Assembly (NCBI GenBank): GCA_018242565.1
Contig: JAFEBR010000609.1
Span: forward strand, 1-34,064
DNA: 34,064 nucleotides
Source of the DNA: Planctomycetota bacterium
GTDB taxonomy: Bacteria > Planctomycetota > Planctomycetia > Planctomycetales > Planctomycetaceae
Direction: 5' to 3'
Within the stretch, counting starts at the first letter, position 1, and every line of letters starts with the position of its first letter. The notes beneath the pieces were generated by a model. The model saw only the letters and a program-made list of their open reading frames with translations, had not been told where the DNA came from and made no database searches. Position numbers and translations under genes: made by a program. Of the stretch, positions 20,905 to 24,267 are shown piece after piece.

Positions 20905-20932
20905 TTGACAATCCGGAGTGCCGGTTTATATT
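20905..20932 (+). promoter_or_regulatory. Sigma70-type promoter of nrdJ
   Basis: A perfect TTGACA at 20905-20910 and TATATT at 20927-20932 (five of six to consensus) are separated by 16 bp. The predicted start is about 20939. It is the best housekeeping promoter visible in the window and would give nrdJ a leader of about 220 nt. Confidence 0.65.
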
Positions 20933-20945
20933 GGCATCCTCTTCA

Positions 20946-20995
20946 CACCCACAACATTGTGGGTGCAGGGGCGGCTCAAAGCCCTACATGTTGTG
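20946..20995 (+). promoter_or_regulatory. Palindrome and alternative stem at the start of the nrdJ leader
   Basis: CACCCACAA at 20946-20954 and TTGTGGGTG at 20957-20965 form a perfect 9-bp inverted repeat with a 2-bp centre, 7 to 26 bp after the predicted transcription start, an ideal repressor position. In addition CACAACAT (20950-20957) is perfectly complementary to ATGTTGTG (20988-20995), and that stem would enclose a GGGC/GCCC hairpin (20969-20984). The two pairings share bases and exclude each other. It does not match the NrdR box consensus and I see no B12 box. Further short hairpins lie at 21058-21075 and 21104-21131. Confidence 0.5.
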
Positions 20996-21162
20996 CCATC
21001 TCTTTTTCACCAGACTTGATTTTTTACTGATCAACAGTATAGTTGAAGGCTGGGATTTGCCGATACTTTTCGGCAGCAGAGATCTGTTTTGTTACGGTCA
21101 GTTGCCCCTCGGAAATGATTTATCGTGGGGCGAGTTACGCGCAGGAATCTTTTAAGGAACGC

Positions 21163-24156
21163 ATGATGCGTACAAAGCACGGAAAAGCTGCTAACGGTCG
21201 TATTTCTACCACAGGCCGCGGGGTACAGGAACCGTCCCTGGAATTTGCTGGGCCCACCGCCATGAAAGTCCCGTCTTATTTCTGCCCCGAGGGCATCGAC
21301 CCGTTCGAAACGGTGGAATGGGACAAACGCTCGGCTCACATTAAAGACGAAAACGGGAAGATTCTGTTCGAGCAGAAGGACTGCGAAGTTCCCGTCGCCT
21401 GGTCGGCCCTCGCGACCAACGTCGTGGTGAGTAAGTACTTCTACGGGGAAGCGGGCACTCCCGAACGCGAGTCGAGCGTGCGGCAGGTCATCTACCGGGT
21501 GGCCCGCACGATCGCCGACTGGGGCACCAAAGACGGTTATTTCGCCTCACAAGAAGATGGCGAGAACTTCTACCGTGAACTGGCCTGGCTGTGCCTGCAT
21601 CAGCACGGTTGCTTCAATTCGCCCGTGTGGTTCAACGTCGGTCTGTACCACCAGTACGGGGTGCGCGGCAGTCGCGGCAACTACCGCTGGGACACCGAAA
21701 CCAATTCGATTCAGCGTCCCGACACGCCGTATGAATATCCGCAGGCCTCGGCCTGTTTTATTCAATCGGTCGACGACAACATGGAAGACATCATGCGCCT
21801 GGCGACCAGCGAGGCGATGCTCTTCAAGTTCGGATCGGGCACTGGCACCGACCTGTCGACCATTCGCAGTTCGAAAGAAAAGCTGTCGGGCGGCGGTGTG
21901 CCTTCGGGTCCGCTGTCGTTCATGCGGGTGTATGACCAGATTGCGGCTGTCGTGAAGTCTGGTGGCAAGACCCGCCGGGCCGCGAAGATGCAGAGCCTGA
22001 AGGACTGGCACCCCGACATCCTGGAATTCATCCAGGCGAAAGCCAAGGAAGAAAAGAAGGCCCGCACGCTGATCGCCAGCGGCGAGTATGAATCGAACTT
22101 CAATGGCGAAGCCTACAGTTCGATCATGTTCCAGAATGCGAACCTGTCGGTCCGCGTGAGCGACGAGTTCATGCAAGCCGTGCAGAATGACGGTGCCTGG
22201 CGGACGCGGTGTGTCACCGACAAGGCCAAGTTCGGTCCGGAATACAAGTCGCGGTATCTGTTCCGACAGATGGCCGAAGGGACCTGGTATTGCGGCGACC
22301 CGGGCGTGCAGTACGACACCACGATCAATCGCTGGCACACCTGCCCGAACTCCGGGCCGATCAATGCCAGCAATCCGTGCAGCGAGTACATGTTCCTGGA
22401 CGACACGGCGTGCAACCTGTCGAGCCTGAACCTGAAGAAGTTCCAGCGGGCCGACGGAACGTTCGACGTCGAACGCTACGTCCGCGCCGCGTCGATCTAC
22501 ATCACCGCCCAGGAAATCCTGGTGGATCACGCCAGCTATCCGACGCCGATGATTGCCGAAAACAGTCACCGGTTCCGTCCGCTGGGTCTGGGCTTTGCCA
22601 ACCTGGGCAGCCTGCTGATGTCGATGGGCATTCCGTACGACAGCGATGCCGGCCGCGGAATCTGCGGGGCCTTGACCGCCCTGCTGACCGGGCAGGCTTA
22701 CCTCACGTCGAGTGAGATTTCGGGCAACATCGGTCCGTTCGCGGGATACAAAGAAAACGAACAGGCGATGTTGAATGTGATGCAGATGCATCGGGATGCG
22801 GTCGAGAACATCGACCCCGCGTGTCCGACCTATCTGCGTGACGCAGCCCGCAAGGTGTGGAACGACTGCCTGGCTTCGGGCAAGGTCAACGGTTACCGCA
22901 ATGCGCAGGCCACCGTGCTCGCCCCGACCGGAACGATCGCGTTCATGATGGACTGCGACACGACCGGCATCGAGCCTGACATCGCTTTGGTCAAGTACAA
23001 GCAGTTGGCCGGCGGCGGCATGCTGAAAATCGTGAACCGGACTGTCCCGACGGCGCTCAAGACGCTGGGTTACAGTCAGGAACAGATTGATGCGATCATT
23101 GCGTCGATCGATCAGCACGACACGATTGAAGGTGCTCCGAATCTGAAGGCCGAGCACTTGCCGGTCTTCGATTGTGCCTTCAAGCCGCAGAACGGCAAGC
23201 GGTCGATTCCGTGGCGGGCCCACGTCACGATGATGGCCGCCGCGCAACCGTTCCTGTCGGGTGCGATTTCGAAAACGGTCAACATGCCGGAAGAATCGAC
23301 GGTCGAAGACATCGAGAACGCCTACATGGAAGGCTGGAAACTCGGTCTGAAAGCCCTGGCGATTTATCGCGACGGTTCGAAGAGCAGCCAGCCCCTGGCG
23401 ACCTCGAAAGAATCGGACCGTAAGAAGAAAGGTGAAGAGCCGGTCGCTGCTGCCCCGGCTCCCGCACCGGTGGTGCCGGCGCCGTTCCGCCGTCACCTGC
23501 CGGCCACACGTCGGTCGCTGACCCACAAGTTCTCGGTGGGCGGTCACGAGGGTTACATCACCGTCGGCCTGTTTGAAGACGGCAAACCGGGTGAACTGTT
23601 CATCACGATGGCGAAAGAAGGAAGCACGATCGGCGGTCTGATGGACACGATCGGCACCCTGACGTCACTGTCGCTGCAATACGGCGTGCCCGTGGAAGCG
23701 ATGGTCAACAAATTCGCCCACATGCGGTTTGAACCGTCGGGCTGGACGGGCAATGCCGACATTCCCAATGCCAAGAGCGTTCCCGACTACATCTTCCGCT
23801 GGCTGGGGATGGAATTCATCTCGGGTTATCGGGAAGCGAATGCTCCGCAGCGGAACGGCAACGGATCGAATGGCCATGCCTCCAACGGTCACGCCGCCAC
23901 GGGTGGCAATGGGACCGTGAAATCCGCCGAGGGAAATGGCCATGTCGCCCAGGCGACTGACCATGCCCCCAGTGCCCACTCGGTGCACTCGCTGGAAGGC
24001 GCCCTGCAGTCGGCTGAAGGACCTCATGTCCGCAGCCAGCAGTTTGCCAAGTTCCAGGCTGACGCACCGGCGTGTGACAACTGCGGAGCGATCACCGTCC
24101 GTAACGGGAACTGCTACTTGTGCCACAACTGCGGCAACAGCATGGGCTGCAGTTGA
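21163..24156 (+). CDS. nrdJ: Class II (adenosylcobalamin-dependent) ribonucleotide reductase
   Basis: 997 residues from the ATG at 21163; the adjacent ATG at 21166 is better spaced (7 nt) from AAGGA at 21154-21158 and may be the real one. An in-frame extension to 21043 is rejected because it precedes that ribosome site. Catalytic core: HGCFNSPVWFNVG, ACFIQSVDDNMED, FGSGTGTDLS, Asn404-Pro-Cys406-Ser-Glu408 (the N-C-E radical triad), and APTGTIAFMMDCDTTGIEPD. After an Ala/Pro linker comes a TSCPD-like domain (FSVGGHEGYITVGLFEDG), then a Gly/Asn/His-rich linker and a terminal cysteine-rich zinc finger beginning CDNC at 971. It makes deoxyribonucleotides with or without oxygen, needing B12. It stands alone between a strong promoter and a strong terminator. 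Confidence 0.97.
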   Translation: MMRTKHGKAANGRISTTGRGVQEPSLEFAGPTAMKVPSYFCPEGIDPFETVEWDKRSAHIKDENGKILFEQKDCEVPVAWSALATNVVVSKYFYGEAGTPERESSVRQVIYRVARTIADWGTKDGYFASQEDGENFYRELAWLCLHQHGCFNSPVWFNVGLYHQYGVRGSRGNYRWDTETNSIQRPDTPYEYPQASACFIQSVDDNMEDIMRLATSEAMLFKFGSGTGTDLSTIRSSKEKLSGGGVPSGPLSFMRVYDQIAAVVKSGGKTRRAAKMQSLKDWHPDILEFIQAKAKEEKKARTLIASGEYESNFNGEAYSSIMFQNANLSVRVSDEFMQAVQNDGAWRTRCVTDKAKFGPEYKSRYLFRQMAEGTWYCGDPGVQYDTTINRWHTCPNSGPINASNPCSEYMFLDDTACNLSSLNLKKFQRADGTFDVERYVRAASIYITAQEILVDHASYPTPMIAENSHRFRPLGLGFANLGSLLMSMGIPYDSDAGRGICGALTALLTGQAYLTSSEISGNIGPFAGYKENEQAMLNVMQMHRDAVENIDPACPTYLRDAARKVWNDCLASGKVNGYRNAQATVLAPTGTIAFMMDCDTTGIEPDIALVKYKQLAGGGMLKIVNRTVPTALKTLGYSQEQIDAIIASIDQHDTIEGAPNLKAEHLPVFDCAFKPQNGKRSIPWRAHVTMMAAAQPFLSGAISKTVNMPEESTVEDIENAYMEGWKLGLKALAIYRDGSKSSQPLATSKESDRKKKGEEPVAAAPAPAPVVPAPFRRHLPATRRSLTHKFSVGGHEGYITVGLFEDGKPGELFITMAKEGSTIGGLMDTIGTLTSLSLQYGVPVEAMVNKFAHMRFEPSGWTGNADIPNAKSVPDYIFRWLGMEFISGYREANAPQRNGNGSNGHASNGHAATGGNGTVKSAEGNGHVAQATDHAPSAHSVHSLEGALQSAEGPHVRSQQFAKFQADAPACDNCGAITVRNGNCYLCHNCGNSMGCS

Positions 24157-24227: not shown

Positions 24228-24267
24228 GAAGCGCCTCGGTCCCTCACCGAGGCGCTTCTGTTTTTTT
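24228..24267 (+). terminator. Rho-independent terminator of nrdJ
   Basis: A perfect 13-bp stem (24228-24240 with 24246-24258), a 5-nt loop and TG followed by seven T at 24261-24267. It lies 72 bp after the nrdJ stop. A smaller 6-bp hairpin (24160-24175) precedes it. Confidence 0.95.

Follow-up and report, generated by a model that had tools for sequence, protein, structure and literature searches.

The nrdJ locus

The window, by which we mean the whole stretch of DNA analysed (34,064 nucleotides from a Planctomycetota bacterium), contains nrdJ, the gene for an adenosylcobalamin-dependent class II ribonucleotide reductase (RNR). The gene matches NF005122 at 1419.6 bits and TIGR02504 at 587 bits, and the genome gives no other match to the RNR barrel family. 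The ATG at 21166 is the conserved start codon, with the ATG at 21163 as an alternative. The features of the locus, compared where possible with a congener of the window's organism, are the following.

20905–20932, + strand: promoter P1 (−35 TTGACA at 20905–20910, 16-bp spacer, −10 TATATT at 20927–20932); kept in the congener
20946–20965, no strand assigned: perfect 9-bp palindrome; genus level only (8 of 9 pairs in the congener)
20949–20964, + strand: predicted NrdR box 1, CCACAACATTGTGGGT; one departure from the core CWANATNTWG; identical in the congener
20981–20996, + strand: predicted NrdR box 2, GCCCTACATGTTGTGC; perfect core CTACATGTTG; GCCCAATATCTTGTGT in the congener
21016–21043, + strand: possible second promoter (TTGATT, 16-bp spacer, TATAGT), 3′ of the boxes; tentative
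21102–21133, + strand: leader hairpin UUGCCCC/GGGGCGA; genus level at most, the congener stem being shifted and still pairable
21154–21159, + strand: nrdJ ribosome-binding site AAGGAA; Shine–Dalgarno sequence aligned in relatives
21159–21171, + strand: start-codon hairpin ACGCA-TGA-TGCGT, enclosing the ATG at 21166–21168; family consensus GTGCA-YGA-TGCAC
21166–24156, + strand: nrdJ coding sequence

A preliminary description of this DNA had placed a palindrome directly after a near-consensus promoter, and both are present. P1 agrees with the consensus at 11 of 12 positions, and the 600-bp region holds three promoter-like sites where shuffles would lead one to expect 0.4. From the position of the −10 element, transcription is predicted to start at about 20939, which gives a leader of about 220 nt up to the start codon, as had been estimated. 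The palindrome is a perfect 9-bp inverted repeat, CACCCACAA-CA-TTGTGGGTG. Within it, CACAACAT (20950–20957) is perfectly complementary to ATGTTGTG (20988–20995), and two further hairpins fold at about 21057–21076 and about 21102–21133. At the other end of the gene, 72 nt past the stop codon, lies a 13-bp perfect hairpin (GAAGCGCCTCGGT-CCCTC-ACCGAGGCGCTTC, 24228–24258), which is probably the nrdJ terminator.

Predicted tandem NrdR boxes downstream of P1

By itself the palindrome is only mildly unusual: the 34-kb window holds six perfect inverted repeats whose arms measure 9 bp or more and whose loops span 0–8. What lies far beyond chance is the NrdR-box content and tandem spacing of the region around it. 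Judged by sequence, a tandem pair of NrdR boxes underlies both the palindrome and its 'competing' partner, which makes the site a new example of an already described DNA-repressor system. The NrdR-box consensus used here, ACACWANATNTWGTGT with the core CWANATNTWG, is of the published type and was not derived de novo. Boxes 1 and 2 are the joint top scorers against this consensus among all 16-mers of the window; the core of box 2 is perfect and that of box 1 has one mismatch. As a tandem pair, too, they rank first in the window, with 32 bp from start to start and a 16-bp spacer (about 15–16 bp, or 31–32 bp start to start, being the arrangement looked for), and they adjoin the promoter of an RNR gene. 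Across the 9.3-Mb assembly, a tandem pair of cores with at most one mismatch and a 22-base gap occurs once, at 20952–20993, and the same search with a 21-base gap found none. The genome encodes one NrdR (TIGR00244, 183 bits), on another contig than nrdJ, and the protein carries the paired CxxC motifs and the DNA-contacting residues D15 and R17.

The preliminary description had read the leader as two mutually exclusive stems, belonging either to a repressor operator in DNA or to an RNA switch. The complementarity on which this rested is real. It arises because every NrdR box is a near-palindrome built on one shared consensus, such that any left half-site pairs with any right one; the halves of two boxes pair here, and no RNA switch is needed. 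Tandem palindromic operators can in this way mimic competing RNA stems. The operator alternative is the one supported, and the operator can now be named.

The perfect 9-bp dyad overlaps box 1, and its centre is 1 bp away from that of the NrdR dyad. This offset is what could favour a different reading of the palindrome, as the operator of a non-NrdR repressor or as a transcription-termination signal. However, the family does not preserve this off-register dyad (the congener retains 8 of 9 pairs, and the next best among the members scored has 5 of 9), whereas the NrdR register is conserved, and dyad symmetry across relatives is at its maximum there. Tandem sites 32 bp apart are typical of NrdR, and the region contains no terminator-like site. 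We regard a different operator or a terminator as very improbable; the conserved feature is the box pair and not the 9-bp dyad.

Conservation of the promoter and box pair

The promoter, the boxes and the 31/32-bp spacing recur before nrdJ across Planctomycetaceae and Pirellulales. Of 105 nrdJ loci, 67% have a tandem pair with this spacing and a score of at least 19 in their upstream region; shuffles reach this in 0.6% of cases and coding stretches in 0%. The 105 loci are related and their counts are not independent. About one-third of the loci score below 19. Among box spacings, 31 and 32 bp stand out as a sharp maximum. Box 1 has a TTGACA/TATA-type promoter ahead of it at a near-fixed distance, the −35 element lying 42–46 nt from box 1 in Planctomycetaceae and mostly 35–41 nt in Pirellulales, and a wider sample of one family agrees. 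In the congener, whose nrdJ contig ends in the leader and whose upstream part was located at the end of another contig, the −35, the −10, an identical box 1 and a box 2 with perfect core are kept at the same spacing, and the sequence between the boxes has diverged.

Among Rhodopirellula-type nrdJ leaders, seven (L089, L095, L097, L098, L104, L109 and L110) share the motif GGATGA, roughly 10 nt upstream of the ribosome site. At one further locus (L066:1501-5886) the nrdJ match spans about 4.4 kb rather than 3 kb, which suggests a 1.4-kb insertion such as an intein.

The leader as RNA

We weighed the box pair against an RNA switch, in which the stem at 20946–20965 and the pairing of 20950–20957 with 20988–20995 would be alternative folds, and a ligand such as cobalamin or a dNTP would decide nrdJ expression. 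The leader of this genome, with the palindrome included, folds better than dinucleotide shuffles (z = −3.04), and the segment 20997–21190 gives z = −2.09 against shuffles. In the congener, the outer pair of the first stem has changed from C-G to A-T on both sides and another pair has become T·G, leaving the RNA stem in place. However, this stem is lost outside the genus, and it was rejected as a conserved hairpin. The alternative stem is one pair short in the congener, and across 34 loci the pairing of box 1 with box 2 (mean 4.8 of 8) is no better than that of box 1 with itself (4.9 of 8), so that it too was rejected as a conserved pairing.

In the stretch from box 2 to the ribosome site, the leaders could not be aligned across the family. 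On average, the 92 leaders folded after box 2 resemble shuffles (mean z = −0.39), on which ground a general leader structure was discarded. The hairpin at 21102–21133 was not found across the family. NrdR, for its part, accounts fully for box conservation and for the 31/32-bp spacing. An RNA switch is therefore highly unlikely in our assessment: it has no Rfam match, no leader that aligns or folds significantly, and no preserved alternative pairing. A genus-level hairpin at the 9-bp dyad is left as a small possibility, because the congener keeps 8 of 9 pairs with one two-sided change.

Cobalamin riboswitches control B12-related genes and, in some bacteria, RNR genes too. The preliminary description had seen no B12 box in the nrdJ leader, and an Rfam scan agrees: no family matched the leader at gathering score, only implausible matches (Yfr1, snoRNAs) appeared below threshold, and the cobalamin riboswitch (RF00174) matched neither at gathering score nor at E ≤ 10. 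This is so although a cobalamin riboswitch was detected elsewhere in the genome, the only one, at 104 bits and on another contig (L208:1501-1731, which is G000:C44:10693-10923). The next long same-strand open reading frame after that riboswitch has a prepilin-like N terminus and is no obvious B12 gene.

Sites resembling the possible second promoter at 21016–21043 occur in several close relatives and are weak across the family. Second promoters of at least 9/12 are found in 15% of leaders and in 6% of shuffles, some of those in leaders being possibly misassigned, or some of them possibly misassigned; a family-wide second promoter was rejected on these figures, and the site in the window is left as tentative.

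Proposed control of nrdJ by NrdR

The region 20905–20996 is very probably an NrdR-controlled promoter of nrdJ, at which ATP/dATP-loaded repressor would occupy both boxes. Counted from a start at about 20939, the 16-bp boxes would occupy roughly +11 to +26 and +43 to +58, some three turns apart and facing the same side of the helix. By analogy with other bacteria, from which nucleotide sensing, binding and repression are carried over here, a rise in dATP would lead an ATP/dATP-loaded NrdR tetramer to bind both boxes simultaneously and to block nrdJ initiation or promoter clearance. When dATP falls, NrdR would oligomerise and release the DNA. The outcome would be dATP feedback on the sole RNR detected, a likely mode of dNTP feedback for planctomycetes in which the B12-dependent class II enzyme is the only RNR detected.

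Many NrdR sites overlap the −35 and −10 elements; unlike these, both boxes in the window lie downstream of the predicted transcription start. A functional NrdR box downstream of the promoter is known from Escherichia coli nrdAB (PMC12176259). A close parallel is Streptomyces coelicolor nrdRJ, where a class II nrdJ is likewise preceded by a pair of palindromic NrdR boxes spaced about three helix turns; the NrdR tetramer binds the two boxes and needs ATP plus dATP, and D15 and R17, shared with the NrdR of the window's organism, provide base specificity (PMC9110341). The two systems differ in that nrdR and nrdJ form one operon, in that order, in S. coelicolor whereas nrdR lies on another contig here, and in the position of the boxes downstream of the predicted start. 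In E. coli and Salmonella, tandem boxes 31–32 bp apart (15–16-bp spacer), like those of the window, precede nrdAB, nrdHIEF and nrdDG (PMC2892513, PMC12176259), but these are class I and III RNR operons, several per genome, in place of a single class II gene with one site. Published distances between NrdR boxes are about 31–32 bp (PMC2892513), and NrdR binding tolerates spacers of 14–17 bp (PMC12051234). No study of NrdR and nrdJ in planctomycetes was found in the literature searched.

A hairpin enclosing the nrdJ start codon

The preliminary description had also given weight to structure near the ribosome site. A different element bears this out, just beyond the range described (20939–21162). 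The sequence ACGCA-TGA-TGCGT at 21159–21171 forms a hairpin around the nrdJ start codon, and in-frame GCAYGATGC is found in 76 of 82 Planctomycetaceae nrdJ genes: 69 read GTGCA-YGA-TGCAC, 6 read ACGCA-YGA-TGCGT and 1 has TGCGA. The other six sequences were read by eye and include three near-variants, in G063 (loop AGA) and in G058 and G092 (GTGCTGGATGCAC), and a fourth, shifted form in G042. The untranslated arm GTGCA is near-invariant (1.57–2.0 bits), compared with at most 0.2 bits in the flanks from −13 outwards. Across the stem, 98.7% of cells are paired, against 0.7–59% for slid partners, and two pairs have changed on both sides in the window's clade. All 62 unique sequences use CAC for the second-codon His, whereas nrdJ bodies use it in 64% of cases. 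A genome has about one copy of the 13-mer GTGCAYGATGCAC, which usually lies at nrdJ. A literature search on start-codon hairpins of RNR genes gave nothing relevant, and the element is apparently new to description and conserved across the whole family. It is absent from Pirellulales nrdJ and only sporadic outside Planctomycetaceae.

This conservation raises a two-layer arrangement, which would add to NrdR control rather than replace it: repression of transcription at 20949–20996, and control of translation initiation by the hairpin at 21159–21171, for example as the site of a regulatory protein. The recurrence of the element in 76 of 82 genes and three near-variants, the near-invariant arm, the compensatory changes, the fixed CAC codon and the nearly single-copy 13-mer all speak for a second layer. 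Against it, a folding energy of −3.7 to −3.9 kcal/mol makes for a weak stem, relatives that lack the hairpin have start regions that are no more accessible, the compensatory change probably arose once, in one clade, Pirellulales nrdJ lacks the element, the same 13-mer stands at the start of an unrelated gene in a genus without detected nrdJ, and a symmetric DNA-binding site would look alike. Taken together, a second layer on top of the NrdR operator is possible but doubtful.

Simple occlusion of the start codon is unlikely, because the stem is weak and the start is no less accessible. With low confidence, we prefer the hairpin as a recognition site for a factor. We tentatively suggest that Planctomycetaceae may control their class II RNR at translation initiation through GTGCA-YGA-TGCAC, recognised by a factor that could be NrdJ itself, although the odds are against it; any such function is read from sequence patterns. 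As a family-wide element it offers a fresh way into how dNTP synthesis may be controlled at translation, and it is the part of the locus that deserves attention.

The second copies of GTGCAYGATGCAC that we sampled were mostly coding matches elsewhere, without a ribosome site. A multi-gene regulon was rejected, most extra copies being ordinary coding matches, save for one gene in genus g51. There, in several species read (L209–L213 and L218, near position 2000 in each), a TPR lipoprotein gene bears the identical 13-mer at its start codon, together with a GGAG-type ribosome site, and nrdJ was not detected in the genome searched; this may be coincidence or a shared element. In the window's own genome, a second copy of ACGCATGATGCGT either coincides with the start of a SecA-like open reading frame or falls just within it (L133:1501-1513, which is G000:C413:2895-2907).
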